Part shown: positions 13,503-62,410 of the stretch, piece by piece
Position numbering within the stretch: the first letter of the stretch is position 1
How the letters are laid out: the number at the start of each line of letters is the position of its first letter
Assembly (NCBI RefSeq): GCF_019059575.1
Contig: NW_024881706.1
Coordinates: forward strand, 620,001-684,000
Direction: 5' to 3'
DNA from: Amphibalanus amphitrite
Taxonomy: Eukaryota; Arthropoda; Thecostraca; Balanomorpha; Balanidae
DNA: 64,000 nt
Program-made: the position numbers and the translations under genes
The notes under the pieces: model-generated
The model's database searches: none
What the model saw: only the letters and a program-made list of their open reading frames with translations
Told to the model about the DNA's origin: nothing

Positions 13503-16500
13503 GTGAGTGTCCGACCGACTCGAGTGGCCGCGCACGCCATCCACGTGTGCTGCGTGTGTTTGTTTTGCCATTTCCGGACGATACCGTTCTTACTGCCCTA
13601 TTTCACGTGGGTTCATTGAGCAAAGTTCGCTTATCTGGGCACTTACAGGACAAGTGATTGGAAACGTCAGAAAAACGGTAATTTTACATCGATTCACCCT
13701 GCCGTTCCTGTGATATTGCGCCCCTTCTTGAGTGTCACTTATTGGCTACGTTTCCATGGCACAAGCTAAGCCGATTTTGAAAAATGGATTTGCTCCATCA
13801 TAGCATTTAGGCACAATTTAAAAATGTAAATATAGGATTAGGTGCTAGCTAAAACCATATATACGCTCATTTTTTGCATAAGATAAATAGTTTCCGAGAA
13901 AAACGCACGTGAAATTTCGCTAAATCGATTTAGACGTGTTATGGAAACGTAGTGATTGCTGCTCCGCTGTTCCAACAGATGTCTCCAAAGAAGTGGTCCA
14001 AGAACACGTTCGGCTGGGCACGAGCGGAGGTGCTCGGCGCCCTGGTCAACTCCGTGTTCCTCATCGCCCTCTGCTTCTCCATCTTTGTCGAGTCGCTGAA
14101 AAGGTAGGTCGGCATAGACCGTGCTTATTGACTAACTACATCAATAGCCCCAATAAAGTAACAATTGCGGTCATTCGGTATCCACCCGATCGAAAAACCG
14201 TCGTGGTGTCTCATATTACCGCGGCCGCTATCACCCTTTCCCCGTGCGGTGATGGGTATACGCGGATGTCACCGGCGCAGTCCGGTTGTCTCGTGCTGCT
14301 TTCATCACTGAGATATCTGGTTTCACCGTCTAGATAGTTCACGATGGTCGTACTGCGTCACAAACCAGCGCTTTCCGAGAAATCATGTCCTAATCATCGC
14401 CAGATGCGCTGCGATGTTTACATGATTGTGGAGAGCTATCTTCGCGCGCATCGTTTGCCTCATTACCTTCTGAAACTGTGTTGTACCCAGGAGTATAATT
14501 AATGTCCTTTAGGTTGGACCTGACTCCTGAATAAGGTGGCGCAAGTGCTTTGATTTGCCATTTACTATTCTTATTTCCGTCCGCCGAAAACGCAATCAGT
14601 TGTTCAGATTGCAGCAGTTTAGACCACTTCACTCGATAGCGGCTGGCTGGCCGCTACTAGATCATGATCTTTGCCCGTGTGTTTGTTTTGTGTTGTGTGC
14701 AATTCGTTTCCTGTGCTGTGTGCAACATCCTGCTGATTCATAGCAAGGATGTTACAGCACAACAACCTGCAGTTGAGTAATGCTGAGTATTGAGCGTCTC
14801 AACAACGTCTATTGTACAACGAGTATTGAGCGCCTCATGTTGCTCCAATGTTCCGTAATCTATTTCTAGTAGGCATTACACTATCCAAAATACAAGTGCT
14901 CGCAAGCGGTGCCTTGGCTATAAAGTGAATCCGATGGTTTTACCGCATTATCACGTGGCCATTAGCTTTGTCCCATGACAAGAATACTTTTGAAGAGTGT
15001 GGTTTAGTATGAATATTTCCAGAGAAATGTCTAATCAGTTGACAAGATACATTTAAACTGCAAGACGCTGTATGTGTACCGTTGACTGATATCGGGCCCC
15101 TTGCCTTTTTGTTTATCAAACCGCTTACACTCCATTAAATGACGAATTCAGACACTGTTATCCTGTATCATCTCTTCTTACTAACCTGTAAACAGGTAGT
15201 AGTCACGGTGACTATAAATAGTAGTAGTCACGCAGCCCACGTTGGCTGTGCTCGCTCTCAGCTCCTCCCGCGGTGGGCGTCTCTCGTCACCGAGTGCTTT
15301 ACGTCGTTTCAGGTTTTACGAGGTGGAGGACATCACCAATCCGGAGATGATTCTGATTGTGGGCGTGCTGGGTCTGGTGGTGAACGTTATCGGCCTGGGA
15401 CTGTTTGCCAGTGAGTACCTTTGGGACTGTTTGCTAGTGAGTACCTTTGGGACTGTTTGCTAGTGAGTACCTCTGGGACTGTTTGCCAGTGAGTACCTAC
15501 CTGTCCGCGGCAGTCGGTGACCTGAGCCAATATGACCCCGCAGCGGCCGCTGATCTACCCTCAGTTAGAGCCCCCCCCCCCCCCCCCCTCCATCTCCATA
15601 GGCCCCTGATCTGCTCTAGGTAGATCTCCGGCCCTCACCTGCTTCAGTCAGCTTCCTGTCCCTGACCAGCCCTTCCTCCGGCCTTCGTCCTGCAGCGGCC
15701 CCTGATTGCCCCCCCCCCCCCTTCTCGGCCTCTTCTTGGCTGACCACATATCCTGGGTCCGTCTCTGTCTATTTGCGAACCATTCTCTCCCTCTGGGCTG
15801 CCGGGGTCGCTGGGTCGTATCCCGTAACCCTTCGGAGTCTTGTTTTGACGGCAGGGTACGAATTTGTGTGCCGGGTGCTATAACTGCCCGTGTGTTTACA
15901 ATGCAAATCGACGTCCGGTTATGTTGATGAAGGGGTTGGCAGGTACACGATACCTAGGATAAATGAACGAGCATGAGTAAGCCTTGTGCTGTCCAGTGTC
16001 AATTTTCAGTAGACGATGTTGTACTGGTTGTTGTAATAAAGGTAATGTGCTAATTTTGTATGCATACAGATGTGCTATCAGCCCTCGCCCGTGCCACTAT
16101 CAATTCACTCACTGGGAAAAATCGCTCCATCGCCGGAGTGTTTTTCAGCACTGGCATAAGTTATGTTGATTCATGTATCAACAATAATGGCACTTGCCAG
16201 AGTGATATTGTCCGCCTCTGGTGAAGTGTAATTTATACAGCACGGACCGGGCGCTTCTTTGGTGTAATAGCTAGCCGCTCTGTCATTTGGCCGCTCAATG
16301 GCCATGGTCGATTTGGGTTAATGACATTCTGCGCACATCGATATCACGCCACGGGCGTGGCCGGGCGGCCGTCGCTGGGCCGGGTCCCATAGATACAGCG
16401 TGAGCCATCACCGGCCGCCAGCTTCCCATTGATAGAGCTGTCGCTGGGCGCGTCCCATTGATACAGGTATCGCTGGGCGCGTCCCATTGCTGCGGCCGCC

Positions 16501-19500: not shown

Positions 19501-22500
19501 GACGAAGACTACCGGCTAGTAAGGTATTGAGGGTGCATCCGTTTTCACAATATAAACTAACCCACGTCATCCCCGAGGCCGGTTGCCAACCCGGGCCCTG
19601 TTTCACCGGTGATAGCAGCACGCTACTATCAAATTGCGCGAGCTGACGTGATGTGATGAGGGCACGCTAATGACGTTTCGTGTAATCCGTGAGCTGCGTT
19701 TGGAACAGAGTTGCTGTTTCGTTGAATGCGTTTGATAATATTTGTTTGATAGCACGGCCATGAAGCTGCTGGCAGCAATATTTGATGACATCACACAGAT
19801 TGACGGCGTCATGGTTTGCTGATGTTTCCATGGAAACCCAATTTGACACGTGTGATAGCAGCGTGCTGCTATCACCGGTGAAACAGGGCCCAAGTGTTAC
19901 GATGTTAACTTATTCGGAGTATTGTACTAACGACGACTCGTTCCCTTCCCTCCGTGCTTTGCGAAATGGCCTTTGTCGCCGAGGCGTCCTACCCTCCCCC
20001 CCTCCCCTCCTCCGTGCTCTTGGAGTGATAATCAGCGGGTATTAATGTCCGCTCTCTCCCTGTTCCGGCAGTGGGGGACAGCGTGTAGTTACTAACTCCC
20101 ATTCCCTCCCTGTTTCCTCCGACAGTGCTGGACAGCGTGTACTAACGCCCATTCCCTCCCTGTTTCCTCCGACAGTGCTGGACAGCGCGATGATCCTGCT
20201 GCAGACGGTGCCCACCCACATCCAGGTGGACTTCATCGAACAGAAGATCCTGCGTGAGATCGACGGCGTGCTGGCCGTGCACGAGTTTCACGTGTGGCAG
20301 CTGGCCGGCGACCGGATCATCGCCTCGGCGCACATCCGCTGCCACAACCTGGCCGACTACATGACCATCGCCGAGCAGATCAAGCAGCTCTTCCACAACG
20401 AGGGCATCCACTCCACCACCATACAGCCAGAGTTTGTCGACGTGAGTACTGTGCCAGCTGCGGGGGGCGGGGTCGCTCGCACACATTAGTTATGTAAGTG
20501 GTGTCTTGTCACGGTGTCGTTTCTAAGAATATTCAATGGAGCATTCCTGCGTTATCGACTTTGCCGATGTTCGGCTTCTCGTGTGTGCTTTCGAAATGAC
20601 CTTCCAGTGTGCGTACTGCGTAGTGTTGCCACCCGGGGTACTGATGCCCTGCCCTGTTACTGGGCGCCAACCTTTGGGTGAATGTGCGTCCAGTACAGTC
20701 ACTGTGTTGGCTATAATTTCCCCCCGTGTTTATTATCGTTTGGTGTGAGCCCGCTGTGAACCCAGTGTTTGTCAGGATGTGCCGTTCCTTCTCAGTGACA
20801 CACACACCGTTTGTATCGGTATGCTACCCCCCTCCCCTCCCTATCTGTGGCTCTCGGCCATATGCCTGTCAGTGCCCGTCAGTCTGCTGTTCTCCCAATG
20901 ACCTCACTCCTTTGTCATCTGCGGAATCCTGAGTGACCTTGGTCTTCCAGTTCATTAGCGGTCGAGTTCAAGGAGGAGGAATCCTGAGTGACCTTGGTCT
21001 TCCAGTTCATTAGCGGTCGAGTTCAAGGAGGAGGAATGCCTGCCTTTGTTTTTATTCTACCATGGTTTTTATTGTTTTTTTTTATATCGTGGCTGATTCT
21101 GGAAGTTATCTGCCAATACCTGCCGTTCAACCATTATCATCCATCCATCCATCCATTATCGTGCCTGTCGGTATTACCGTCCTCCCTAAAGGCTGGAACA
21201 CAGCATCCACGCGTGCAAACTGCGTCTCGCTCATTTCATGAGGTTACAGTAATTTCAGCGCGCTCCACACTTCTACCTGCTGACCCAACCAGCGAATTCT
21301 GCTGTGCTGGTTAAGACTCATAAACTTGCGTATTTTTGTTGTCAGCTTGCAACTCATGCCGTGAGAGTTGGGAGCGAAAAAATGTCTTCCAACGGGGGAG
21401 CGAGGCGCGATATTTTGCACGCGCGAGAGCTGTGTTCCAGCCTTAACTCCTGCTCCCTGTGTTCGTCGGTATCTATCGTTAAACCATATCAACCATATTC
21501 CCGCCTTTGTGCTTGGTAACAATACAGCTGTCCTTTCAACTATCGCCCCTTTGTTTTTCAGTACGAGGAGGAGGCGCACACGACCAAGAGCGAGACTTGC
21601 ATACTGGACTGTCCGCCGTCCGACAACGATGCCTGTGTGGCGCAAAAGTGCTGCACGGCCAAAAAGGTACGTCCTCTTCCTCCTCTCTCCCCCGATCACG
21701 CTGACTCGGCGGTTCGTGAAGGGTCTCGTCCGGTGGGGGCGGGAGTCGGGCTCACGCCAGCCGGGGACGGGAGAGACTGTTCCGGGTCGGTCTGCCGCCG
21801 CGGTCGGCTGTTCTCGCCCGCTCAGCCGTGCTCTATAACCGGAGCGGTTTCGCCAGCTCGATGTGGTTATTGGTCACGTTTCGCCATTGTTTGTTCACTG
21901 GGCTGATCGATATTCGGTCTGTGACCGTGCGCTGACGGCTGTTGCACGCTGCCCGCGGTGGTTTTCGGCGGGGCAGCAGCTGTGCGGCCGCAGGTGTGCT
22001 CAGCGCCGGGGCAGGTCTCTGTGTTCGGTCGTAACACAGGAACACAGAACAGACACTGAACACGGCGCCCATCTGTGCCCACCACACGTGTGGCGCGTCA
22101 GTGGCGCGTCGGCTGTAATCGGCGCTGACGTCTGCCCCGCCGAGCTGGGTGACTCAGGCTGAGCTGGTGACCTGCGCGGTATCCCGCCCTCGGTGGTGTG
22201 CTATGACCGCGTCCGCGCCCGCTCCGACGGCTCGGGCGGATCTGACGCGACCTTGGCTCGGACGAGGAAATGGCCAGGCGTCACGGAACCACTTGTAGAA
22301 GGGACGGGTTCGCCAGGCTGAGTGTCACGTGTAGTCTGGGTGATCGCGTGCGTCTCTGCTCAGCGGAGTGGACGCCACCTCTCAGCAGATCGAACAGTCT
22401 GCCAATAGAAACAATCGGGAAGTTTACGCGCTGTCAGAGACCGTAATTTCAGCGCGTTCCAAATTTTTACTTGATGACCTCACAAATAAATACTGCTGCG

Positions 22501-23764
22501 CTGGATAAAACTTGGGAAACTGAGTGATCTTGTTCGAGACGCACCGCTTCGCTTTAACCTGGTTGTTCGGTAAATGTCATCGTTGTATTACTGATGTTGT
22601 ACTCTGGGAAAAAAGCGGAAAATCATCCCAAGACATTGGGCTGCGGAGTTGATGGATTTTTAGTGACTCCAACTCCGACTCCGGCTTCCAAAAATTAACT
22701 CCGACTTCGACTCCGGCCAGAACTATTGACTCCGACTGACTCCAATTCCGACTCCGCAGCCCTGCCAGTTCTGCGGAGTCTATGGATTTTCGGTGCCTCC
22801 GACTCCGGTTTATAAAACCGACTCCGACTCCTGTCAGAACTTTCGACTCCAACCAACTCAGACTCCTACTCCGACTCCGAGTCCGCAGCCCTGCATAAGC
22901 ATTATCCATCACGCACTCCAGTTCAGTGGAGCTTGTCGGATATGTTCTGCGCCATAGCATTCTGTTGTTTTCGACTTCGCTGAGTGTGTGTCAACATGTT
23001 TGTCGGTCGCGCTGGGCTCATTGACCCAGCGGCCGCCTTTGCGAAGCTCTCTGACCGTGTTTCCAAAAGTGCGTACTGTGTTCCTGTTCCCAGTACTGAT
23101 GGCCTGCTGGTCTGACCGCTGCATCTCTGCGTCTGCCGCATTCCCTGCGTATTGAGTGTTGTGTTCTCCCCGGTCCTGATGGCGTGGATACACTGACCGC
23201 TTTCTGTCTGCCGTATTTCCTGTGTGCTCTTCCCATTCCTGATGGCTGAGGTGCGCTGACCGCTGTCTACCTGTCTGCCGTATTCTATGTGTACTGTGGT
23301 CCCGGTCCCGATAGCCTGAACACGCTGACCGCTGCGTCTGCCTGTCTGCCGTTCTCCCCGCGTACTGTGTCCCCGGTCCCGATGGCTGGGACACGCTGAC
23401 CGCTGTCTGCCTGTCTGCCGTATTCTCTGTGTACTGTGGTCCCGGTCCCGATGGCTGGCATACGCTGACCGCTCTGTCTGCCTGTCTGCCTTATTCCCCG
23501 TGTTCTGTGTCCCCGGTCCCGATGGTTGGGACACGCTGATCTATGTCTACTACCTGTCTGCCGTTCTCCCCGTGTTCTGTGTCCCCGGTCCCGATGGCTG
23601 GGATACGCTGACCTCTGTCTACCTGTCTACCGTTCCAGTCGGACGAGACGGAGAGCCTGCTGGTGCGCCAGCGGACGGGCGGCGCCAGCGACCTGCCGCC
23701 CTACACGGACACCGACACGGGCCTGGAGGGCGTCTCGGTCCGGCCGGGCTCAGCGGGGGTCTGA
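13326..23764 (+). CDS. SLC30A1: Zinc transporter of the ZnT1/SLC30A1 type (CDF family), complete, 7 exons
   Basis: A cation diffusion facilitator that exports cytosolic zinc, usually at the plasma membrane, as a proton-coupled dimer. Exons: 13326-13502, 13979-14103, 15313-15410, 16722-17111, 20176-20441, 21562-21666, 23639-23764; total 1287 bp, 428 aa, all phases closing. Zinc-site residues are in place: H43 and D47 in TM2 (SFHMLSD) and H215 and D219 in TM5 (LHVLADAIGS). The His-rich loop (residues 135-152, HSHG repeats) lies between TM4 and TM5. The C-terminal cytosolic domain has VHEFHVWQLAGDRIIASAHI and HSTTIQPEF, which are diagnostic for ZnT1 (Drosophila ZnT63C). Exon 6 adds a Cys-rich tail (CVAQKCC). 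Six predicted membrane helices fit the family, and the length is somewhat short of vertebrate ZnT1. The ATG is in a perfect ACCATGG context. Zinc induction through MTF-1 is likely from the family but not shown here. Confidence 0.93.
13979..14103 (+). CDS. SLC30A1: ZnT1 exon 2 (TM3)
   Basis: 125 bp after CAG, before GTAGGT. It encodes KNTFGWARAEVLGALVNSVF, the strongly conserved FGWxRAEVxGALVN motif at the start of TM3. Confidence 0.92.
15313..15410 (+). CDS. SLC30A1: ZnT1 exon 3 (TM4)
   Basis: 98 bp after TTTCAG. It encodes RFYEVEDITNPEMILIVGVL and on to VNVIGLGLFA. The donor CCA|GTGAGT is the first of four tandem copies of this exon end and donor. Confidence 0.9.
15397..15500 (+). repeat. 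Four tandem 26-bp copies of the ZnT1 exon 3 donor
   Basis: The unit is GGGACTGTTTGCCAGTGAGT followed by ACCTTT, near-identical in all four copies. Each unit holds the last exon bases plus a full GTGAGT donor. The first gives the conserved protein. Using the second shifts the frame, and reading through in the exon's own frame meets a TAG at 15461-15463. Confidence 0.95.
15571..15589 (+). repeat. C homopolymer in ZnT1 intron 3
   Basis: A run of about 19 C, with another C run at about 15711-15721. The rest of intron 3 (15501-16721) shows nothing that I can identify. Confidence 0.85.
16722..17111 (+). CDS. SLC30A1: ZnT1 exon 4 (His-rich loop, TM5-TM6)
   Basis: 390 bp. The acceptor follows a pure C15 tract. 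It encodes the histidine-rich loop, an acidic linker, and TM5 with MNMRGVFLHVLADAIGS, then TM6 ending RSVYPL. The donor is GTGAGT at 17112. Confidence 0.92.
17112..20051 (+). other. SLC30A1: ZnT1 intron 4
   Basis: A 3-kb GC-rich intron. About 17.2-17.65 kb contains loose repeats of GTGCCGGGTG(G/A) units. A G run (about 18 G) lies at 17899-17918. The MITE at 19593-19891 is the only clear mobile element. No hidden exon was recognised. Confidence 0.5.
19593..19891. mobile_element. 299-bp MITE with 30-bp terminal inverted repeats
   Basis: The left end GGGCCCTGTTTCACCGGTGA and the right end TCACCGGTGAAACAGGGCCC are perfect reverse complements, and pairing continues through TAGCAGCACGCT with few mismatches. 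The interior contains further short inverted motifs. It is non-coding and its termini resemble those of 8125-8266. Confidence 0.75.
20052..20190 (+). repeat. Three tandem 3' splice modules before ZnT1 exon 5
   Basis: Units of about 50 bp each hold a pyrimidine tract (CCCTCCCTGTTTCCTCCGAC), CAG, the first exon bases TGCTGGACAGCG and, in the first two, a branch-point-like ACTAAC. Acceptors end at 20071, 20125 and 20175; only the last gives the conserved protein. The 20125 acceptor reads into TAA after six codons. Confidence 0.92.
20176..20441 (+). CDS. SLC30A1: ZnT1 exon 5 (C-terminal zinc-sensing domain)
   Basis: 266 bp after CCGACAG, encoding LLQTVPTHIQVDF through EFHVWQLAGDRIIASAHIRC to TTIQPEFVD. 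The acceptor is the last of three tandem acceptor modules (see the repeat at 20052-20190). The donor is GTGAGT at 20442. Confidence 0.92.
20922..21033 (+). repeat. Perfect 56-bp tandem duplication in ZnT1 intron 5
   Basis: Two identical copies (20922-20977 and 20978-21033) beginning GGAATCCTGAGTGACC. Each contains a GTCTTCCAG acceptor-like stretch, but no exon follows. Confidence 0.9.
21562..21666 (+). CDS. SLC30A1: ZnT1 exon 6 (Cys-rich tail)
   Basis: 105 bp, phase 0 at both ends, after TTTTTCAG and before GTACGT. It encodes an acidic segment and then TCILDCPPSDNDACVAQKCC. A Cys-rich tail is also seen in vertebrate ZnT1 after the SxVxxCELACRTQC region, so it fits the family. Confidence 0.85.
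22637..22900. repeat. Degenerate CTCCGA-rich repeat, possibly hAT-like
   Basis: Two head-to-tail segments are built of ACTCCGACTCCGGC units, each bounded by GGGCTGCGGAG or CTCCGCAGCCCTG motifs (22637, 22757-22769, 22887-22897). The boundary resembles the CAGGGATGCGGAGCC end of the 35022-35898 element. No target duplication was visible. Confidence 0.45.
23080..23638 (+). repeat. 70-bp minisatellite abutting the ZnT1 exon 7 acceptor
   Basis: About eight diverged units of CCCCGGTCCCGATGGCTGGG then ACACGCTGACCGCTGTCTGCC-type sequence. The last unit ends in the functional CGTTCCAG acceptor, so exon 7 uses the array for its pyrimidine tract. Open frames through the array are repeat artefacts. Confidence 0.9.
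23639..23764 (+). CDS. SLC30A1: ZnT1 exon 7 (terminal)
   Basis: 126 bp after GTTCCAG, with stop TGA at 23762-23764. It encodes a hydrophilic tail starting SDETESLLVRQRTGG, which includes a possible dileucine-type sorting signal (ETESLL). The phase matches exon 6. The pyrimidine tract belongs to the minisatellite that fills the end of intron 6. Confidence 0.75.
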   Translation, partial: SDETESLLVRQRTGGASDLPPYTDTDTGLEGVSVRPGSAGV

Positions 23765-26112: not shown

Positions 26113-26196
26113 GTGAACAAGAAGTACGCGGCGCTCGAGGCGATGCAGCATCAACTCAACGTCAACAAAGGAAGACTGCTGGAACGGCGGCGATAA
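26113..26196 (+). CDS. Possible short terminal exon of an unidentified gene
   Basis: After an AG at 26111-26112 an open stretch of 27 codons plus TAA reads VNKKYAALEAMQHQLNVNKG and on to LLERRR, amphipathic and helix-like. It looks more like real protein than the surrounding sequence, but no partner exon, donor or homologue is recognisable, and GTGAAC at its start could be coincidence. It could be a pseudogene fragment. Confidence 0.2.
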   Translation: MNKKYAALEAMQHQLNVNKGRLLERRR

Positions 26197-26516
26197 GCGC
26201 CCGAGGGACATAGCGCCGACACCGGGCGGGGGCGCGGCACGCGCACATGTGCAGACATAACCCTACACAGGACATACGACATCGAAGAGATGAAAACCTA
26301 CCAACTATTTGGTATAAGGATCACGTCTTTCTTAATCTGAGCGTGCGCCACTTATGGCCAAAATTGCACGATGTTTTATGCCGACATTCAACTGTCGGTC
26401 TCAGCAGTGTGTGCGTCAGCTGAGCCATACGACCCCGTACTTCTGAACTCAGAGACGTTAGGTGCTACCCAGCTAGGCGCGAAAGGGAGTTTGCTGGGTC
26501 TGCGAGCCGCATAAGT

Positions 26517-28655
26517 GGCTGGAACAAGCCGAAGGCTCGCGGCCGCCCAAAGGACGGCATCACTGCAGACAAGTTTGTGCTCGTCGCCTACGATTTCGCG
26601 CGAGCATATGATACCATCGACCACAAGATGCTCCAGAACAAACTGCTGAGACACCTACCTAAATGCCTCGTCACCTGGATCTTCCAGCTGCTCAGGGATC
26701 GCCGAGCCTGCGTGGAGGTAAACGGCGTTCGCAGCCGGGACAGGCCCTTCAGAGCCGGCCTGCCGCAGGGATCCGTGCTCGCGCCGACCCTATACACGCT
26801 CTGGGCCGCCGACCTCATCGAGGAGCTGCGCAAGGTGCCCCGCACGGACTGCTACATGTACGCAGACGACACCGCCACAGTGAGCGCCGGCCCGAACATC
26901 CAGATGGCTCTGTCCCGAGCACAGCAATCGGCAGACATGATGGCGAGATGGGCGACCAAGAACAAGATGAACATCGCCGGCCACAAAACCCAAATCCTGG
27001 TTCTGTCTCAGTGGGCCCCTGACGCCAAGAATGTCACGCTCAAGGTCGCAGGATCGGACGTCACCGCAACATCTCATGTCAAGCTGCTGGGAGTGACGCT
27101 AGACCGCCTCCTCCACTTCGGCGAGCACTGCGCCAGCCTGCGCCGCAAGGTCCGCCCACGCACAGCACAGTTGAGGAAGCTCACCGGCCACTCATGGGGA
27201 CTACGAGAGCATCACCTGCGCACAGTAGCCAACGGCTATGTTCGCGGCGCGTTAGAGTACGCTGCAGCAGCCTGGCTGCCGGCGGCCTCCCCGTCCCACG
27301 TGGAGCTGGTCGATCGGGAACTGCGCGCGGCGGCCAGGGCAGTCACCGGCTGTCCCATGTCGACGCCGACGCACGGCCTGATGGCGGAGGCCGGCATGGC
27401 CACGGCAGAGATGCGACGCACCACTCTAGCCACGAGAATGGTGATGAGAGCAGCCTCGCTGCCTCCAGACGACCCACTGAGAGCCGTGGCCACCGCGACA
27501 CAGCACTCCCGCCTCTCCGCCGTTCGCGGCTGGCGCGAGCTGGGGCGCAACACCCTACGCGACCTGGGAGCGCTGGATGTTCCAGTCGAGCCCAGCCTTG
27601 CGGCAACTCTCCCTCCGTGGACTCCTACGGAAGGAGTCTCCATCGCCCCCACCGCTGGACCCGCATGCGCAAGAGGCAGATCAGATGAGTCCCGGAGAAC
27701 CGCGGCAGAGGACCTACTAGAGAAGCTCCCGGGGGCGGAGCGCGCGATCTGGATATGGTCGGACGGATCAGCGACAGGAGGAGTGACATCGGGCGGAGGA
27801 GGCGCCCACATCACCCTCCCGAACGGCAACACGGAAGAGGTCAGAACCCCAGCAGGCGTCTACTGTTCGAGCACAAGAGCGGAGCTGGTTGCACTCCGAG
27901 ACGCGCTCGCAAAGATCGTGGAGATCGAGCAAGAGGACGCCGCCCCCGCCGGCGGTGACGACCCAATCATAGCCTGCCTAGACTCCCGTGCGGCGCTGAT
28001 GACACTGGAGAGCGGTCCCGCAGCCCAGACTACCCAGCTGGGAGCCACCATCTGGCAGCAGCTGCTGCTACTGGTGGAGCGCGGTCGACCGGTGCACCTC
28101 CAGTGGGTGCCCGCCCACTGTGGCCTGGCCGGCAACGAGCGCGCCGATGCAATCGCAAAGGAGGCCGCAGGCATGGACCAGTCAAATGCCCCTATTGACA
28201 CCAGGAGCGCCACCCGCGCCGCCGCCAGGTCTGCCCGGCGCCAGTGGCAACGTGCATGGCCAGACGGCTGGTACAAGGAAATATTCGGTGAAGAACATCT
28301 ACCGGGACCGGTCAGCGGTGACAACCGGATGGCCGCGGTTGACACACATCAGCTGCGGGCGGGACACTGGAGCCAGTCGGCCCAGTACCTGCACCGCATC
28401 GGACGCCGCCCAACTGACACCTGTCAGGGCTGCGCCGACACCGAGTGCCCAGCGGCTCGATGCCTGGTGTGCGGCGAGGAGGCGGATACGCCGCGACACG
28501 TGCTGCTTCGCTGCCCGTGCCTGTGCGGCACGCGCCTCCACGCGCTGGGAAACATGCACGGTCGACCACCTGACCTACGACGGGACGACGTGGTGGCGGC
28601 CTTTGCCGCCGGCTTTCGCTCATTCCAGAGCCGATCGGCTACGCCCCGGCAATAG
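26517..28655 (+). CDS. LINE ORF2 fragment: reverse transcriptase C-terminal half, RNase H, CCHC-like tail
   Basis: An unbroken frame of about 712 codons to TAG at 28653-28655, with no start of its own because the element is truncated. In order: the RT block with LVAYDFARAYDTID (first catalytic Asp), the LPQGSVLAPTLY motif, the YADDT catalytic box, and a thumb-like region. Then RNase H with WSDGSATGG, STRAELVAL, CLDSRAAL and WVPAHCGLAGNERAD, carrying the D-E-D-D catalytic set. Then a Cys/His tail (CQGC, CLVCGEEADTPRHVLLRC) typical of this group. The missing upstream part includes RT blocks 0-2. The fragment cannot mobilise itself. Codon use is as GC-rich as the neighbouring genes. Confidence 0.88.
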   Translation, partial: GWNKPKARGRPKDGITADKFVLVAYDFARAYDTIDHKMLQNKLLRHLPKCLVTWIFQLLRDRRACVEVNGVRSRDRPFRAGLPQGSVLAPTLYTLWAADLIEELRKVPRTDCYMYADDTATVSAGPNIQMALSRAQQSADMMARWATKNKMNIAGHKTQILVLSQWAPDAKNVTLKVAGSDVTATSHVKLLGVTLDRLLHFGEHCASLRRKVRPRTAQLRKLTGHSWGLREHHLRTVANGYVRGALEYAAAAWLPAASPSHVELVDRELRAAARAVTGCPMSTPTHGLMAEAGMATAEMRRTTLATRMVMRAASLPPDDPLRAVATATQHSRLSAVRGWRELGRNTLRDLGALDVPVEPSLAATLPPWTPTEGVSIAPTAGPACARGRSDESRRTAAEDLLEKLPGAERAIWIWSDGSATGGVTSGGGGAHITLPNGNTEEVRTPAGVYCSSTRAELVALRDALAKIVEIEQEDAAPAGGDDPIIACLDSRAALMTLESGPAAQTTQLGATIWQQLLLLVERGRPVHLQWVPAHCGLAGNERADAIAKEAAGMDQSNAPIDTRSATRAAARSARRQWQRAWPDGWYKEIFGEEHLPGPVSGDNRMAAVDTHQLRAGHWSQSAQYLHRIGRRPTDTCQGCADTECPAARCLVCGEEADTPRHVLLRCPCLCGTRLHALGNMHGRPPDLRRDDVVAAFAAGFRSFQSRSATPRQ

Positions 28656-28696
28656 CTGGGGCCGGGAGGAACATCATCATCATCATCATCATCATC
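26517..28696 (+). mobile_element. 5'-truncated non-LTR retrotransposon (I-group LINE)
   Basis: The insertion is bounded by an exact 12-bp target duplication AGCCGCATAAGT (26505-26516 and 28697-28708) and ends in an (ATC)n tail (about 28671-28696). The body begins inside the reverse transcriptase domain, so the endonuclease, ORF1 and 5' promoter are gone, as expected from incomplete target-primed reverse transcription. The presence of an RNase H domain points to the I/LOA/Ingi-like group rather than Jockey or CR1. An intact frame and a perfect target duplication suggest a young insertion. Confidence 0.9.
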
Positions 28697-29993: not shown

Positions 29994-32900
29994 CTGGCGG
30001 CAGGTGGGAGAAACTCTGTCACCAAGGCGGGAGTGTTGGCGGAGCTCACCCAGCCGGGGAGGGGCGAGTACGGGGAACCGAGCTACAGGTGACATTTGTT
30101 ACATCAGGTGACGGTTTCATGATCGTAAGCGATAAAATGCAGTGCGCGTTTCGTGTGCCACATTAAAAGTATGACATAGACCGCTGTACATCGTAGACTT
30201 GGTGTACAGAGGTCTATGATCATGATATTCAATAATCACAGGATACACTGCCGCTTGCTTTCTAAACACAGAGCTGTAACAAATAAGCATTTTAAAATTA
30301 ACAATGTTGAAAATGTGAATAATTTTGAAACAAGTGCAATGTACATTACATCTATATATCAATTTAACTCACAACACAATTTTACCAGGGCCCCATAACC
30401 TGTTTTGTGAGAGAAGGACGAACGTCATGATGTTGAATCAGCGCAATCTGTTTGTTTCACAAATCCCGACCTGTCCCACACAACACCCATCCAGCTTGAC
30501 AAACTAGTTGCAGTGCAGGTCAAGGTTTCATATATCCCCACTGCCGGTCCGCTGAGCAGGTCTGATAGCTCGGCGTATGATGCATCAACCAGCCGGGCGG
30601 GGTTAGCGCAACCCGAGCCAGCGCGCCGGTCTTCACACCACGGGGCCAGCGGCGAGTCCCCAGCGGTTCGGGCGGAGCGCTCACCTGTATGTACGGGGCG
30701 CCGTAGAACACGTGGAAGCCGATGAAGGTGTCCGAGATGACGAAGCAGATGCCGCCGATGCAGGAGCACAGTTTGGTCCAGGTCCAGAAGTCCTCGAGCA
30801 GGCGGACGCGGGCGATGGCGCGCCATACCATGGTGATGAGTGCGCCGGCGTACACGGGCAGGCCGACGACGAACACACCCTCAGCGCCCGGCATCAGCAG
30901 GTACAGCGCTGGAAGATACAAACAGAGACACAGTCAGACGACGAACACACCCTCAGCGCCCGGCATCAGCAGGTACAGCGCTGGAAGATACAAACAGAGA
31001 CACAGTCAGACGACGAACACACCCTCGGCGCCCGGCATCAGCAGGTACAGCGCTGGAAGATACAAACAGAGACACAGTCAGTCACAGTCAGACGGACAGA
31101 CAGGACGGCTCGCCCGGCGTCACCAGGTACAGCGCTGGAAGACACCATAGTCACAGACAGTCAGACATGGACGCAGACACAACAAGACACAGAAGAGTAC
31201 TCCGTCCAACACAGATACGGTCCGACAGCGGCTAGCACTTTCATTCACAATCACACAAAGGGCCGGCCGGCACCGGCCGATATTCGGTCATTTACGGGGT
31301 CGGGAGTCTGTCTGCACAAGCTAATGACACCCAAACACGAGCCCTCGGTCAATGCAGTTGCCCATGTTGCGTGCATTGTTTCGTTGGGCAATTTAGCGGG
31401 ATGACGGGTCGTGCTGATTGACACACAGGTCGGCTCTGTTGTGGCACGATTAGCGTCAGGTAAGCTCTTGTTTTTGTCATCGGTTTCGGCAGATATCCTT
31501 GGAGAGACGGCTCAGTCTTTGTCTGCGGCCTATCGCCAGCCGTGCTATCATTGGGACGGGCCGGCCCAGCGGTGCGCTCTCCAGTACACATGCACCGGGC
31601 GTCCGGGCGTTCCGGGAGGCTCGTCAGGTCGACCGTCCGGCCGGGCACCGTTAAAACGACCAGCTACGAGCGACGGCTGCCGGCGGCGCTAACCGGCCCG
31701 GCCGGCGGCGGAGCTTACTCAGGAAAAGTAGCCGCCGGCGGAGCTTGAATGGCCAGTAGCCAGAGGAGCTAACTGACCTAGCGGTGACGGGCGATCACTG
31801 GGCTAGCGCAGCGGTCAGCAGGGCTTACTGGACCAGGAGCCCGCTGAGCTAACGAGGCCCGCTGCCAACGGACAGCGGAGTCCGCCATACCAGCGGCCAG
31901 CGACGCTCACAAACCAGGGGTCACATCGGCTCAGCGAACCAGCGATCGGCGGTCACGCACGTGCTACTCGGCCGTCACATGAAACGCCCTAAGGCCGTCA
32001 CATGAGACGCATTCATTGTTTTTAGGTCAACAGCCGCATATCATATGTCAGCGGGCGTGCTGAGCAGGAGTCTCGGGCAGCCGGGAAACGCTGATAAACT
32101 CCGAGACACCCAGGAGACTATATGAGATTGAAACGTTCCAAACGACTCAGCTACCAAACGTAGCCCAATAACAAGATTATCGTATCAAGTAATGCGGTAT
32201 ACGAGTAGTCACGCGCTGTCATCAGACGCGGTACATCTTGATCTCAAACCAGCCCGAGCTGGCATCAGATCGGTTCAACGCGTCCGACAGAGCAGGAAGA
32301 CATCAGTCAGTTAGTTACGCCGGACGCGGCGCCGAACCGGTTAGGGGCGGCTTCCGGACCGCGGAACGGGCCGCCTGTGAGGGTGAAACGGGCCGGGCCT
32401 GTGAGGTCATAGAGTACGAATGAGAGACAAGTACACATCGTCAACGGAGTAATGAGTGAGTGAGTGAGTGAGTGAGTGAGTGAGTGAGTGAGTGAGTGAG
32501 TGAGTGAGTGAGTGAGTAAGGGAGGAAGGGAGCGCTGGAGTAATAAAGTGAGTGAGTGTGAGTGAATGAGTAGGGTTGTTTCAGGGTGTCTTCTGTGTAT
32601 AGTGTATCCCAGACTGCACCGAGCACTCGCGCCCAAGTGACGAGCGACAGCGGGCACTTAAACACGTCACCTGAAAATTGAGAACCCAGAACTTACCGGC
32701 CGCTCCGAGCGAGTACAGCACGGGTAACTTACCGGCCGCTCCGAGCGAGTACAGCACGGGTAACTTACCGGCCGCTCCGAGCGAGTACAGCACGGCGCCC
32801 GCGTACGGGTTGACGGGTTTGAAGCCGAAGGCCGATATGTAGAAGAGGTGTCCGGCGGCGAAGGCAGCCATCCCCTCCAGGAAGAAGCCAGGGAAGACGA

Positions 32901-35900: not shown

Positions 35901-38900
35901 TACAAGCACGGTAAATAAACTCAACAATATTGATTCAGTATCATCAACAAATGGCAACACCAATATCGGAATCCCAAAATACCATACAGGTAGGCAGCTT
36001 GAGTGATGCATTAGGAATGGCTGCGCAGTGTGTACGGCAAGCACTCAGATTAATTTCACCGCATGTGCTACGACTCGAGAACGATCGAAAACGTTGAACA
36101 AGAACGACCAGCCCAATATATGGCCAAACATGGCCAAACTTTACGAGTGAGAAGTTTCTGTTAGCGATGGCAAGGGATGGCAAGCGAAGGCAGTGATGAC
36201 AATTTTCTCATACCTGAAACGGTATGATTTGGAAACGTCGGCAACCGGTCAGACCTGGCCCAAACTAGTAGAATTAAAACCAATTGGGGGTCTTTTATCT
36301 TGCAGCTCCCGAGGGAACGTCAATTATAGGTATGTGGGTCGAGACAACCATCGAAATAACAAATACGGTTATATAAGAGCAAGGTCTGTTGTGAAGATGA
36401 ATAAACATAACGATCAATTTCGACAGTGTAAATATGCATACCACCGAAGAGAAAACATGAGTCCGTTGAATACATCTCTGTGATAGATCTGTACCTAGTC
36501 GAACCAGAATGACACCATACTTGCACTGTACCAAAGACCAAAGTTGTGGCTGGTAAGTAGAGCATACATTATGCACATAAGTAGGACATTTAAATTAAGC
36601 AGCCAGCCCAAGACAACACGACAAATCTGACTGAATAAACAATGGGTATATCAGAGAACACCGCTGCCTCAAACGCTTCCATAAGGTCCACACTTCCTAC
36701 TTCATCAATATTAAAGCCCCAGTTCGGTAGTATGAGAGAAACATGACGCCCATAGCAGCACGGGGCCCCACAGCCCGCCACTATTTACTGAGACTGACTC
36801 CGGACGGTCGGGCACGGCCTCCGCCGGCCAAGGCCGTCCATTGCCTGTCCCGAGCTCTGCGCTGGCTGCTGCCGGGCGAGGACGGACAGCGGGACCGGCG
36901 GCGGGCCGCCGGGCGGCCTGGTTATTCCTGGTTCGGCCGGTCCACGAGCCAAAACACGGCATTAGCAACGACTGCCGTATGACGGGGCGGCATCCGGCCT
37001 CCGAGTCCAAACCTTCGGTGACCTGGTAAAATCAACAGAGAAGGGAGACGCCGGTCCCGGCTGCCAGCGGCGTCATATAATGATACAGGGTCAGTGGCAG
37101 GGAACTCACGACTGCGACTGAGAGATCGCTGACAATACCGATCACAATAATAGCCAAATACTGGCATTTGTAGTGGTTTATTTTTGTGTTTTTCTGAGAA
37201 TCCATGCTTAAGGTCATCGGATATCGAGCATAACTGAATAATCTCTTGGCATATGCAAATCGTGTGTAAACAGCGTGGTTCATATTTATCGGTCTCAAGT
37301 ATGCTCCTTTTATGCATAGGCCGAATGCCTATGCATAAAAGCGGGTGCACAATAATAGTTGAACCATAGCCCAAGCCTGTAGTCACTACGTCACGATTGC
37401 GATGGCTAATAATTAAATGAATAAAGCTGACCATAGCATGCAGGAATGCCGCAGTAAAAGTTCAGTAAAAGCTATATAGATTACAAGACCGAAAATGGTA
37501 CCGGACTAAAAAACCAAACCGAGCAGCCAAAAGCTCAGTTTTCATAGCTCTGTCACCGCACACAACCAACCAGAGTTGAAAGTTTCGTAAGCTGCTCGCC
37601 CAACCTGATTCGAATGATTTGTACACTCCGCGAACCCGTTTCTGAACGACCAGGTACTGGAATCCAAGAAATCAACAGAATGGACATTTCCAGCTAACAG
37701 AATAGACGGCGATTCATCCGAGTCAACGACGGAAAACAAACCAACACAAATGTTTGGGCCGTGAGGGCTGGCGCAATTGGCGGATCAAAACTCGAGAGAC
37801 CGTGGAACTTCAACGGCGTCGCGGTTTCATCGCATCTTCATCACACAAAACAATGAAAGAAAGGGGTCGTACTGATGTGTACCACGGGTTAGCGATGACA
37901 ACAATTCAGCGCTTTAAATTCGAAGTTCATTCTTGTATAATTTGCAATTTCAAATTTAACTACCTATATCCAAATGTTTTTTTCGGGCTGTAATTTTGAC
38001 GTCAAAATCGAAAATGCATTCCCCACCCGAGTCTACCCCTGGGCTACAGGTGCGAACAAGCACACGGATCTGCAATACATATATGCATGATCAGTTACAG
38101 TAAAGGTACAATCGCCACTCACCTTGACCTGTACCCGTGTGCTCGTTCGTCTCCGTGTACTGACTCGATTCTGACCGTCCCCGCGTACTTGTTTATCCCC
38201 GTGTACTCAGTCGCCCCCAAGTACTCGCTCGTCCCGGTGTAATCACTCGTTCTGTGTACTGACTCGCTCCCGGTTCGCTCCCTCGTCCCCATGTACTCGC
38301 TCGTCCCGGTGTACTCACTCGTCCCCGTGTACTGTCTCAATCCCAGTGTGCTCACTCGTCCCCAGCTAGGTACTCCCTCGTCCCCGTGTACTGACTCGCT
38401 CCCGGTCTGCTCACTCGTCCCCGTGTACTGACTCGCTCTCGGTCTGCTCACTCGTCCCCGTGTACTGACTCGCTCCCGGTCTGCTCACTAGTCCCCAGCA
38501 AGGTACTCACTCGTCGCCGAGGCTCATGCCGTGCAGTAACACGAAGATGAGCAGCGAGAGGACCGGCAGGCACTTGATGACCAGCGCCAGCCAGGAGGGC
38601 CGGTCCTCCGGGATAAACAGCACAAAGTACACCGCCGCAGTCTTGAAGAACGGCACCAGCTTCGGACCCACGCTCTTTATCTGAAATGAACATTGTGTTG
38701 TATTGATACATTAACCACACCCAACAGCGCATTAAAGGGACCCTCCCACCTTCAAAAAAGTTTATGAATTGGCATGAAAGTGATGTCGCTCGGTTCAGAA
38801 AGATCGAAAACGAATATCTACCAAATTTCACCGAAAAATATTCACCGGTTTTCAAGATAATAGACTTTTACTTTTGTTTACTTTTTGGGATCTCCGCTGT

Positions 38901-39389
38901 TCCTAGCGACTTTATTTGGAAGCAATAGTTTGGCAGCTGAAAGTGCGGCACTTGTTGCGCGCAAAGCAGCATATACCACCGCGTGCTACAAAACGTTTTA
39001 GTCAAACATTTAAAAATCGTTAGATATCTGCGCTGACGTCACACATTCAGAGGGGTATTCCTATGCATTAGCCCCTCTGAATCAAAATGCTGCAATTTTG
39101 AAATTCAATATTTCCAATTTAAGGCATTTCTCGATGTTGTGAGTGCCGAAACCGGTAATTGTGAGCCAGGGACCCCATTTTGGCTATCTCAACTCAAATC
39201 TAATGTTAAGGTGGGAGGGTCCCTTTAAGTAAATGGGAAACAACTCTACAGCATGCCATAAACAATGTTCCCCAATGACAATATGTAAGCATGTACATTG
39301 TACTTGTTTTGTCATGCTCATTGCTGAGTCTGTGCATGTTGGTAGTTGAAATAAGAGGGAAGACTTACCACAGTTGTTGGTGAAACCAT
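29748..39389 (-). CDS. TMEM86: TMEM86-type lysoplasmalogenase (YhhN family), complete, 5 exons
   Basis: A multi-pass ER membrane enzyme that hydrolyses the vinyl-ether bond of lysoplasmalogens. Exons on the minus strand: 39369-39389, 38511-38680, 32769-32962, 30685-30908, 29748-29993; total 855 bp, 284 aa, all phases closing. The N-terminus MVSPTTVIKSVGPKLVPFFK aligns closely with vertebrate TMEM86A (MVSPVTVVKSEGPKLVPFFK). Further family marks are SWLALVIKCLPV, the GDALLVFP motif with a conserved Asp in exon 3, and WRAIA, WTKLC and FVISDTFIGF in exon 4 (ISD is conserved), then VLYYAGQLGIALSVVDS in exon 5. About eight membrane helices are expected. The tail is odd: three copies of AAAPCAT plus F, I or M, then an Ala run extend it about 30 residues past the family norm. 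Whether it is the 86A or 86B type cannot be decided. Confidence 0.9.
30685..30908 (-). CDS. TMEM86: TMEM86 exon 4
   Basis: 224 bp. It encodes LYLLMPGAEGVFVVGLPVY through WRAIARVRLLEDFWTWTKLC and CFVISDTFIGFHVFYGAPY. The first 44 bp and the acceptor CTTCCAG are repeated upstream in tandem 72-bp units. The donor is GTGAGC (30684-30679). Confidence 0.9.
30865..31140 (-). repeat. 72-bp tandem units copying the TMEM86 exon 4 acceptor
   Basis: Three near-identical 72-bp units start at 30865, 30937 and 31009, and a diverged fourth runs to about 31140. Each carries the CTTCCAG acceptor and the first 44 bp of exon 4. The units are whole codons long, but reading from a distal acceptor hits TGA right after VFVV, so only the proximal copy is productive. 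Confidence 0.95.
31141..32689 (-). other. TMEM86: TMEM86 intron 3, remaining part
   Basis: GC-rich sequence with loose GAGCTAAC(T/C)/CGGCCGGCGGAGC repeats around 31.69-31.9 kb and the GAGT microsatellite at 32452-32520. No exon recognised. Confidence 0.5.
32452..32517 (+). repeat. (GAGT)n microsatellite
   Basis: About 16 perfect GAGT units in TMEM86 intron 3, followed by a looser GAGTGAGTG patch up to 32570. On the transcribed strand it reads ACTC. Confidence 0.95.
32690..32797 (-). repeat. Three tandem 36-bp copies of the TMEM86 exon 3 donor
   Basis: Units start at 32690, 32726 and 32762. Each holds the last 25 exon bases (coding VLYSLGAAG) and a GTAAGTTACCC donor. The 36-bp length keeps the frame and there is no stop, so use of the second or third donor would add 12 or 24 residues (unit GKLPVLYSLGAA). 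Confidence 0.95.
32769..32962 (-). CDS. TMEM86: TMEM86 exon 3
   Basis: 194 bp after CCGGCAG. It encodes YAYARRIMLGLSCCMLGDAL through GHLFYISAFGFKP to VLYSLGAAG. The donor GTAAGT (32768-32763) is the first of three identical tandem copies. Confidence 0.9.
33667..33886. repeat. Perfect 29-bp inverted repeat around a 160-bp spacer
   Basis: 33667-33695 (starts GTACGGGGACCCGCAGTTGC) is the exact reverse complement of 33858-33886. A second inverted pair, GAGACAATTT/AAATTGTCTC (33609-33618 and 33709-33718), suggests a larger degenerate foldback element. Confidence 0.7.
35022..35898. mobile_element. Non-autonomous hAT-type transposon (877 bp)
   Basis: Exact 8-bp target duplication CCTACAAG (35014-35021 and 35899-35906). 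Terminal inverted repeats are CAGGGATGCGGAGCC and GGCTCCGCATCCCTG. An 8-bp duplication and CAGGG ends are typical of the hAT superfamily. The subterminal regions are long (GGCTCC)n hexamer arrays, which resemble arrays of transposase-binding sites. No transposase is encoded; the Ser/Gly- or Arg-rich open frames are translations of the hexamer. Confidence 0.85.
37307..37341. repeat. Perfect 15-bp hairpin with 5-base loop
   Basis: CTTTTATGCATAGGC, loop CGAAT, GCCTATGCATAAAAG. It lies in TMEM86 intron 2. Function unknown; it could be the tip of a decayed foldback element. Confidence 0.8.
38119..38510 (-). repeat. Minisatellite built from TMEM86 exon 2 donor-like units
   Basis: On the coding strand the units read GGGGACGAGTGAG plus CAGACCGGGAGCGAGTCAGTAC and variants, repeated about ten times. 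The exon 2 end and donor is GGCGACGAGTGAGTACC, so the array looks like an amplification of the splice donor. Most units keep a GTGAG pentamer. Confidence 0.85.
38511..38680 (-). CDS. TMEM86: TMEM86 exon 2
   Basis: 170 bp after CATTTCAG. It encodes IKSVGPKLVPFFKTAAVYF and on to HGMSLGDE. The donor GA|GTGAGT (38510-38505) is directly followed by a minisatellite made of donor-like units. Confidence 0.9.
38736..39224 (+). mobile_element. TTAA-flanked MITE, third copy (489 bp)
   Basis: Flanked by TTAA at 38732-38735 and 39225-39228, with the same AGGGACCCTCCCACC ends as the copies at 4896-5835 and 5064-5530. The left 270 bp is closely similar, but the middle-right part differs, containing TTCAGAGGGGTATTCC and its complement. 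It sits in TMEM86 intron 1. Confidence 0.88.
39369..39389 (-). CDS. TMEM86: TMEM86 exon 1 (start codon, 7 codons)
   Basis: ATG at 39389-39387 encodes MVSPTTV, followed by donor GTAAGT (39368-39363). The match to the TMEM86A N-terminus decides the start. A TTTTCAG at 39424-39418 could be a 5'UTR acceptor. Confidence 0.85.
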
Positions 39390-42849: not shown

Positions 42850-42945
42850 ATGCGAGCAGAGGTGACGTCACGCAGTGGACAGCCGCGGAGATCGGTCCGT
42901 AATGCGGCTCCGTCCCCAGGGCCTCCCGGCGCGCCGTCGGCGGTC

Positions 42946-47500: not shown

Positions 47501-49301
47501 CGTGCCTTTACAACTCTCGTAGCATTTGACACTGTCGTTTTCTGCGGGTCAAGTTTGTTCGTTGTTGACTGTGTTGTGTTGACGGTGTGTCACTGCCTGC
47601 TGTCCGCAGTGGAGGGCCTGAGTCGGGTGGCCAAGCGGCTGGGCATTGACTGCGCGCCGGCCATGGTCGGATGGGACTACCACTGCGGCGGCTCGCACCC
47701 CGTCTTCGAGGGATACGTCGTCTGCGAGGAGTTCGAGGATACGCTCATGGACGCCTGGGAGGCGGTAAGGAGCGATTACATCCCCACCCCTCCCCGCGTA
47801 GAAGGCGGTAAGGAGCGATCACATCCCTATTTCCTACCCTTCTTTTCCTCCCACGCCACAATTGGCGTGGGAGGCGCCATGTGGCGATTGCATCCCCTTC
47901 CTGCTTGGGAGGCGATATGGCGCATTATATTCCCCCTTCCGCCGCCGCTACCCCGGCGAGCTGATTTCAGATAGATTACCCGCTATTCTGCAATGATCAG
48001 CATTTTTATAACTCCAGTGTGCATAGCATAGAGGCTTGGGCATGCGTGTAGTTTACAGTGTAGTTTGCGTTACATAAGCCTGTTTCTCTGTGATAAAATC
48101 GTGTCTGAAAGCGCATGTCGTGACTGCCAACTCAGTCCGGCAGACGGGCGCACTGTTGGACGTCCTTGCCTTCGGATCGTCGTGACTGTCATATTTGTGA
48201 AGGTTTTAGTGAGACTCGACTGGGGAAGCCGAAGACGTGACGAATTTGTGGCCCAAAGACACACTTAAATTTCTATCTAACCCTCCCTCGCTGCCCGATT
48301 TCTATCTAACCTCCCCCTCGCTGCCCGCTCCTCAGGACCAGCGGGAGGCCCGGCGCCGACAGCGCGAGAAGCGGGAGAAGCGCATTCTGGACAACTGGCG
48401 CCGCCTGGTGCGGGGCCTGCTCATCCGGCAGCGGCTCGCCAGGAAGTACGACTTCCAGGACGAGCAGCCGGGCGCCAAACGGCCGGCCGGAGCTCACCGC
48501 CCCGACGGCAGCAAAAAGGCCCGCGCTCACACCGCCGACAAGCCCGGTCCGGGCCCCAAGACGGAGCCGGGGCCGCTGCTGCCGAACTTTGAGCCCAAGG
48601 TGGAGCCGGCACAGTCGGGAGCGAAAACGGCGGTGAAGTCTGAGCCGACTCTAGCAGGGAAGGTGAGCGCTATGATGCGGGCGACGCAGGGGGCCAAACA
48701 GCCGCCGAAACGGGAGTCGAAGCGGAAGCCCAAGGAGGAGCCGAAGGTGGAGCCCAAGGAGGAGCCGAAGGGGGCCGGGTCGGAGGACGAGGAGGTGCCC
48801 GAGACCCAGGAGGAGGTGGCGCGCCGCGTGGAGGCCTCCATGGCCAGTATGGGGCTGCGCCGGGTGGCGCTCAGCTCGGACAGTGAGGCCGGCTCGGACG
48901 CAGAGGACGCCAAACCCGCCAGAACCGGGGCCCGGTTCGGCGCGGCGGTGATGGCCAAACTCAGTCCGGCCGTGACGAACGGAGCCGCCCGCAGTCCGGC
49001 GCCGGCCGGGCGCAAACGCCGCTCGGCGCCGGCGGCCCGACGGCGCGCGCGGCGGGCCTCCCCTGCCAGCCGCTCGCCGTCCCCCGACCCGGCTGTCCCG
49101 GCGGCCGTTCGGGCCGCGCGGCGCCGCTCCGCGCGCACCGCGGCCGTCAACTACCGCGAGACGGCCGGCTCCGGGTCCGACGAGGACGGCGAGGCGCCCA
49201 TACGAGAGGATGACCTCACCTCTGACGAGGAGCAGCCGTTCGCCAAGGCCGCCGACGCCGCCGCCAGCTCCGGGGAGGACAGCGACTTCATGGGCTTCTG
49301 A
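42946..49301 (+). CDS. XPC: DNA damage recognition protein XPC (Rad4 family), complete, 6 exons
   Basis: XPC is the nuclear sensor of helix-distorting lesions that starts global-genome nucleotide excision repair with RAD23 and centrin. Exons: 42946-44586, 45210-45451, 45829-46066, 46918-47086, 47610-47764, 48336-49301; total 3411 bp, 1136 aa. Layout: basic Lys-rich disordered N-terminus (1-250); first half of the transglutaminase-like domain (about 256-395, with [18 protein letters not shown] and [20 protein letters not shown]); long charged insert (about 396-515); second half ([18 protein letters not shown] and [20 protein letters not shown]). Then BHD1 ([21 protein letters not shown] split across the exon border), BHD2 ([26 protein letters not shown]) and BHD3 ([30 protein letters not shown]). 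Exon 6 adds [15 protein letters not shown] and a 300-residue charged tail, longer than usual. An in-frame ATG at 42850 could add 32 residues; 42946 was preferred for MADPSLSP and its GxxATGG context. Confidence 0.93.
44587..45209 (+). other. XPC: XPC intron 1
   Basis: 623 bp. It contains three copies of an 18-bp unit (GGAACGAGGGCTGCC type) at about 44818-44872. Nothing else seen. Confidence 0.6.
45210..45451 (+). CDS. XPC: XPC exon 2
   Basis: 242 bp after CACCCGCAG, donor GTAGGT. It encodes [20 protein letters not shown] through WWSEATDAW to PMPQSIAE. Confidence 0.92.
45829..46066 (+). CDS. XPC: XPC exon 3 (BHD1)
   Basis: 238 bp after CATTTTAG. It encodes [40 protein letters not shown] and KPYKIVKA. 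The donor AGG|GTTCGT is weak but is the only phase-consistent one. Confidence 0.9.
46067..46917 (+). other. XPC: XPC intron 3
   Basis: 851 bp, C-rich towards the acceptor. The second half contains loose repeats of CCCGTCCC/GGTGACTGC(C/T)C(A/C)-type sequence. A T run lies at 46194-46206. No exon recognised. Confidence 0.55.
46918..47086 (+). CDS. XPC: XPC exon 4 (BHD2)
   Basis: 169 bp after GGCCTCAG, donor GTGGGT. It encodes [40 protein letters not shown] and GTVHLN. Confidence 0.92.
47087..47609 (+). other. XPC: XPC intron 4
   Basis: 523 bp without recognisable repeats or exons. A T run lies at about 47342-47351. Confidence 0.55.
47610..47764 (+). CDS. XPC: XPC exon 5 (BHD3)
   Basis: 155 bp after TCCGCAG, encoding [38 protein letters not shown]. 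The donor GTAAGG is copied in tandem just downstream. Confidence 0.92.
47757..47940 (+). repeat. Tandem, diverging copies of the XPC exon 5 donor
   Basis: The exon end and donor GGGAGGCGGTAAGGAGCGAT plus TACATCCCC recurs with the donor intact at 47801-47830 (GAAGGCGGTAAGGAGCGATC). Two degenerate copies follow (GGGAGGCGCCATGTGGCGAT at 47870 and GGGAGGCGATATGGCGCATT at 47908). The second donor lies 43 nt downstream and would shift the frame. Confidence 0.8.
48269..48327 (+). repeat. Duplicated branch-point and pyrimidine module before XPC exon 6
   Basis: Two copies of ATTTCTATCTAACCCTCCCT followed by CGCTGCCCG (48269-48297 and 48298-48327), then CTCCTCAG. Each has a CTAAC branch-point-like motif and a pyrimidine tract, but only one AG follows. 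Confidence 0.9.
48336..49301 (+). CDS. XPC: XPC exon 6 (terminal)
   Basis: 966 bp after CTCCTCAG with TGA at 49299-49301. It encodes [33 protein letters not shown], then a low-complexity charged tail with KEEPK repeats ending EDSDFMGF. The start aligns with the ERKEKEKKEKRALGNW region of human XPC. Confidence 0.92.
   Translation, partial: DQREARRRQREKREKRILDNWRRLVRGLLIRQRLARKYDFQDEQPGAKRPAGAHRPDGSKKARAHTADKPGPGPKTEPGPLLPNFEPKVEPAQSGAKTAVKSEPTLAGKVSAMMRATQGAKQPPKRESKRKPKEEPKVEPKEEPKGAGSEDEEVPETQEEVARRVEASMASMGLRRVALSSDSEAGSDAEDAKPARTGARFGAAVMAKLSPAVTNGAARSPAPAGRKRRSAPAARRRARRASPASRSPSPDPAVPAAVRAARRRSARTAAVNYRETAGSGSDEDGEAPIREDDLTSDEEQPFAKAADAAASSGEDSDFMGF

Positions 49302-50373: not shown

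Positions 50374-62410
<12,037 letters not shown>

Follow-up and report, generated by a model that had tools for sequence, protein, structure and literature searches.

Tandem repeats spanning splice junctions in three genes of an animal genomic window, probably minisatellites of the mirage type

Tandem duplications containing a splice site were present in three genes, ZnT1, TMEM86 and XPC, within the window, the term used here for the whole 64,000-nucleotide stretch of DNA that was analysed. They are best explained, at a probability of roughly three in four, as minisatellites of the mirage type, that is, short tandem duplications over existing splice junctions, some of which were expanded to three or four copies and all of which were tolerated. 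The kind of repeat is already known, from amphioxus and human, while the lineage that hosts it here is possibly new. A first-pass annotation of the same DNA had reported such repeats at splice junctions across the three genes; its observation is partly confirmed, being largely real and overstated.

Gene reconstruction in the window, which is animal nuclear DNA with a GC content of 53.9% (that of amphioxus is approximately 41%), yielded five genes. On the forward strand are ZnT1/SLC30A1 (7 exons, 428 amino acids) and XPC (6 exons, 1168 amino acids), and on the reverse strand TMEM86 (5 exons, 284 amino acids) and two partial genes, which we take to be a STK38/tricornered-like kinase (8 exons) and a LARP-like gene (3 exons). 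All five models read through with no internal stop codons. They contain 24 introns and 49 junctions, comprising 24 donors and 25 acceptors, where 48 junctions had been given previously. Every donor is GT and every acceptor AG, although the GT/AG rule was itself used in placing the junctions. Pfam agreed with the models for the scanned set, namely the whole of ZnT1, the whole of TMEM86, the STK38 piece and a 311 amino acid piece of XPC. The nearest solved relatives of ZnT1 and XPC are human SLC30A1 and human XPC, and the human chains aligned without gaps over ZnT1 introns 2 and 4 and, with the 311 amino acid piece as query, over XPC introns 2, 4 and 5. The positions of these introns are therefore set by homology as well as by the GT/AG rule.

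Several other elements were noted in the window. A tract of CCTAA-like pentamers, with a period of 5 at 10101-10140, is followed by CCTACAA repeats (10101-10233 in total). TTAGG is the arthropod telomere repeat, of which the CCTAA-like tract is reminiscent; CCTAACCTAA occurs once in the window and CCCTAACCCTAA does not occur in it. Together with the GC content and the general look of the proteins, the tract gives a hint, and no more, of an arthropod source instead of a lancelet. Two exact patterns of 33 and 29 bases, taken from a repeated element of the window, had no match in one scan each of viral_contigs and genome_contigs, in which records close to the window's own genome may be left aside. 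Near-perfect inverted repeats lie at 4892-5840, 57809-58436 and 51471-51705; they include a nested element of approximately 950 bp that starts with TTAAAGGGACCCTCCCACC, and two further pairs have arms of 179 nt (96%) and 82 nt (89%). A related AGGGACCCTCCCACC sequence was seen by eye near 38733-39230, where arms of at least 40 nt were not found. The inverted repeats look like foldback or MITE-type elements. A long ORF at 26424-28655 on the forward strand resembles, by eye, a non-LTR retrotransposon with reverse transcriptase and RNase H-like parts. The sequence CTAACGCCCAT occurs three times, against 0.08 expected from shuffling, and only in two tandem arrays 9 kb apart, at 20142-20152 (the end of ZnT1 intron 4) and 29547-29579 (downstream of TMEM86).

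A junction was scored as copied when the 24-mer centred on it recurred no more than 300 bp away, the score being the number of matching positions out of 24. Four junctions lie within clean arrays:

15396..15498, forward strand: array of 26 bp x 4 at the ZnT1 exon 3 donor, junction 15410/15411
20064..20187, forward strand: array of ~50 bp x 2.4 at the ZnT1 exon 5 acceptor, junction 20175/20176
30865..31143, reverse strand: array of 72 bp x 3 plus a diverged fourth copy at the TMEM86 exon 4 acceptor, junction 30908/30909
32690..32795, reverse strand: array of 36 bp x 2.9 at the TMEM86 exon 3 donor, junction 32768/32769

Two of these arrays are at donors and two at acceptors, and in all four the unit (26, 36, 50 or 72 bp) contains the exon-intron boundary. 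The best copy of the junction 24-mer scored 23/24 at a period of 26 for the ZnT1 exon 3 donor, and 24/24 for the ZnT1 exon 5 acceptor (period 50), the TMEM86 exon 4 acceptor (period 72) and the TMEM86 exon 3 donor (period 36). The unit at ZnT1 exon 5 holds TACTAAC, a pyrimidine tract, the AG and the first exon bases. The open reading frame is kept by copy 1 at the ZnT1 exon 3 donor, by the last copy at the ZnT1 exon 5 acceptor and by the exon-proximal copy at the TMEM86 exon 4 acceptor. At TMEM86 exon 3 an identical donor occurs three times at 36-bp spacing, and the reading frame stays open across every one (+0, +12 and +24 amino acids). The acceptor part of the diverged fourth copy at TMEM86 exon 4 occupies 31118-31143, and this older copy is a sign of repeated turnover. 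It also bears, together with point differences between copies, on whether the arrays are assembly artefacts, with repeats collapsed or expanded from heterozygous reads. One amphioxus mirage was aberrantly assembled in a draft genome, according to the available text of PMC3087553, but such divergence among copies makes an artefact very improbable here.

At four further junctions the repeats were weaker, or stopped short of the splice site:

47760..47827, forward strand: direct repeat of 25 bp, 24/25 identical, period 43, at the XPC exon 5 donor, junction 47764/47765
38196..38496, reverse strand: minisatellite of 18/37 bp at the start of TMEM86 intron 2 (exon 2 donor), natural junction 38510/38511
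23167..23635, forward strand: minisatellite of 71/140 bp adjoining the ZnT1 exon 7 acceptor, junction 23638/23639
48269..48327, forward strand: duplication of 29 bp x 2 preceding the XPC exon 6 acceptor, junction 48335/48336

The XPC exon 5 donor had a best copy of 21/24, with repetition confined to a 25-bp core, and with a joint of -18 bp it is not a clean duplication. The minisatellite of TMEM86 intron 2 consists of degenerate versions of the exon 2 donor, GACGA followed across the junction by GTGAGTAC; its edge is approximately 14 bp from the donor and the best copy of the junction 24-mer scored 19/24. The junction of the ZnT1 exon 7 acceptor is uncopied (13/24), the array edge falling approximately 3 bp short, as is that of the XPC exon 6 acceptor (15/24, approximately 8 bp short), where the duplicated part is the branch-site and pyrimidine region and the AG lies outside it. 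No copied junction was found among the 19 of STK38 and LARP, for which the top 24-mer score within 300 bp was 16/24. The first-pass annotation had counted eight copied junctions; four of these stand as clean, the XPC exon 5 and TMEM86 exon 2 donors stand in weaker form, and the ZnT1 exon 7 and XPC exon 6 acceptors do not. Scores of at least 19/24 were obtained at 6 of the 49 junctions, four of which reached 23-24/24, so that some junctions are indeed affected, at a rate of only 4-6/49 where about one in six had been claimed.

At all six affected sites a full reading frame was obtained from the exon-proximal copy. Sixteen intron-side copies were tested, including a real extra AG site at a shift of -104 at ZnT1 exon 5 and, for the TMEM86 exon 2 minisatellite, five sites of the GTGAG/GTAAG type that are a subset of its degenerate units. 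Fourteen of the sixteen led to a frameshift or early stop, and the only extra copies that kept the frame were donors 2 and 3 of TMEM86 exon 3. Several of the decoys match the real site exactly across the donor 9-mer or the acceptor core. From the reading frames, the exon-proximal site is probably the one used in splicing; for TMEM86 exon 3 this choice is an assumption, since all three donors keep the frame, and use of donors 2 and 3 would give predicted isoforms of +12 and +24 amino acids. Tandem alternative donor sites are a known class, which the three identical in-frame donors resemble, although those of TMEM86 came from duplication of a unit. The spliceosome must either pass over identical decoys or produce some faulty mRNA.

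These copies bear on the proposal that the repeats are selected for redundancy, as the first-pass annotation had also suggested, or serve regulated alternative splicing, with spare sites buffering mutation or giving isoforms. The TMEM86 exon 3 donors would suit such a role, and alternative splicing has been linked, in the part of PMC2812944 available, to tandem repeats that human duplicated genes carry at exon-intron boundaries. Against it stands the loss of frame from nearly all the extra copies tested; selection for redundancy found no positive support, and this explanation is very improbable.

The possibility that ordinary neutral tandem duplications are scattered across introns and fall at some junctions by chance, with no link to splice sites, was weighed using 21 TRF arrays from the whole window (period of at least 15, score of at least 80). 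With random positions across the window for all 21 arrays, 1.8 strict overlaps with a junction were expected and 4 observed (p 0.10), a result that chance would accommodate, and 7 arrays came within 25 bp where 2.5 were expected (p 0.009). Chance is favoured further by the 14 of 21 arrays that lie more than 25 bp from every junction, contrary to the earlier statement that only a few tandem repeats occur elsewhere, by the unaffected junctions of STK38 and LARP, and by the post hoc choice of the finding. A null restricted to introns is fairer, because exons rarely tolerate duplications. For this, 14 of the 21 arrays were retained as intronic; five outside gene models and two inside exons were left out, one of the former, at 63853, being an array that may lie in a STK38 intron. 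With the 14 arrays placed in introns with an exon overhang of up to 45 bp (20,000 draws), strict overlap was 4 against 0.8 (p 0.007) and 7 arrays were within 25 bp against 1.3, a number matched in none of the 20,000 draws; an overhang of 20 instead of 45 gave smaller expectations. The remaining seven intronic arrays lie farther than 25 bp from junctions.

When the introns-only null was matched for GC content, strict overlap was 4 against 0.9 (p 0.011) and 7 of 14 arrays were within 25 bp against 1.4 (p 0.0001), which upholds, for this window and post hoc, the earlier claim that repeats are concentrated at junctions. GC content was rejected as the source of the excess, which survives this matching. 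The excess also held after removal of the pair of arrays whose edges fall short of their junctions (5/12 against 1.1, p 0.003), and enrichment persisted without STK38 and LARP. Comparison of junction 24-mers with all intron positions was less decisive, giving 6/49 against 3.2 at a threshold of 18/24 (p 0.10), 6/49 against 2.6 at 19/24 (p 0.045), 5/49 against 2.1 at 20/24 (p 0.06) and 5/49 against 1.7 at 21/24 (p 0.03). Intronic arrays thus crowd the intron ends approximately fivefold in this window, a suggestive excess that is weak under the strictest tests (p 0.03-0.10) and comes from post hoc tests of a single window. Placement by chance is a possible explanation, but a doubtful one given the intron-restricted results.

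The repeats might alternatively be traces of intron gain through tandem duplication of an AGGT segment, as the first-pass annotation had proposed. The duplications do include the GT or AG, and in the available text of the papers the same route is proposed for amphioxus mirages (PMC3087553), reported for human boundary tandem repeats (PMC2812944) and shown for a potato gene (PMC4974935). AGGT, however, is present at none of the six affected junctions, and AGGT-centred duplication was rejected. End to end, the five affected introns scored 13, 15, 15, 16 and 17 of 24, none in register, which goes against the proposed route, and at 571-5548 bp they are far longer than the units. TMEM86 intron 3 has an array at either end; the units of the two are unrelated, and the best end-to-end score is 15/24.

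Start and end of one and the same intron were alike at 17/24 or more in 8 of 24 introns; the corresponding figures for ends of different introns were 7/97 pairs within a gene and 25/446 pairs between genes (6-7%). Shuffles gave approximately 1.4 such pairs per 24 and reached 8 in none of 40 trials. Three of the eight similar pairs align exon to exon and two fall within one base of register, the rest mostly not; one near-register pair is in STK38, formed by junctions 56320 and 52893 between exons 56321-56460 and 52762-52893. Only one affected intron is among the eight. Seven 24/24 matches between different introns disappeared once nine pairs with overlapping windows were removed. The excess of similarity between the ends of one intron raises the odds of intron gain slightly; as the origin of the arrays, intron gain seems highly improbable.

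The joints of the arrays provide some indication of how the mirage-type duplications may have formed. Joint overlap in the four clean arrays was -1, -2, +1 and -2 bp, that is, no more than 1 bp. An array within ZnT1 intron 5 taken for comparison, a clean 55-bp duplication at 20923-21042 and approximately 480 bp from the closest junction, has a joint overlap of +5 bp, unlike the junction arrays. Staggered-break fill-in followed by end joining is expected to yield a duplication with little homology. The scant microhomology fits such fill-in end joining better than slippage between existing repeats, as we infer it, and the low overlap may stem partly from later mutation at the array edges. Each array would have started with one short duplication requiring little or no homology, and growth to three or four copies would have followed by slippage or unequal exchange. 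The exon-proximal donor (the first copy) or acceptor (the last copy) would still be used, and the array would be tolerated because of this, the surplus copies leaving with the intron. The excess of arrays at intron ends would then reflect a mutational or retention bias and not the birth of the affected introns.

In the available text of PMC3087553 and PMC3902484, the name mirages was given in amphioxus Adh3 to tandem repeats over exon-intron boundaries, and these are described also in the globins BflGb6 and BflGb9, TnC and PGBD5. Their units are 10-160 bp, at either intron end, with AG or GT in many copies; regular splicing is suggested by the Adh3 data and globin RT-PCR, their length is unstable, and a tie to intron gain was suggested. 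The present arrays are likewise minisatellite-like boundary duplications at donors and acceptors, with units of 26-72 bp within that range. They differ in the genes concerned, probably in phylum, and in that an intron-end excess was tested, such a test not having been found in the text available from those two papers. Human segmentally duplicated genes, in the part of PMC2812944 available, carry variable tandem repeats with a mean unit of 30 bp x 4, some at exon-intron boundaries, and 27 intron modifications are given for them, with new introns and alternative splicing. The resemblance lies in minisatellites of which some sit at exon-intron boundaries; the human repeats concern recent paralogues, are backed by RNA evidence and are tied to new introns, whereas the genes here are unrelated. 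These comparisons, and that with tandem alternative donors, are made on the DNA sequence of the window.

The ATP2A1 and potato RdRp cases, as given in the available text of PMC4974935, share a short tandem duplication holding splice signals. Here, unlike in those cases, duplication affects a single end of an intron that is long and already existed; the junction lacks AGGT, and the two ends of the affected introns carry no copies in register. Papers on earthworm and C. elegans minisatellites describe intronic minisatellites, and in the portions available no duplication of junctions was found.

It is tentatively proposed, as a possibility that may well not hold, that a genome-wide process operates in a non-chordate animal, whereby duplications are placed or retained approximately five times more often at intron ends than inside introns, so that mirages would be a general mutational feature of junctions and not a peculiarity of a handful of chordate genes. 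Splice sites repeated identically at intervals of 26-72 bp provide natural tests of the choice of the spliceosome among copies, and in most arrays here the full protein would come only from the exon-proximal copy. Were mirages confirmed in another phylum, they would count as a mutational product that arises repeatedly at splice junctions, of use in tracing duplications made by repair and in judging the role suggested for them in the evolution of introns.
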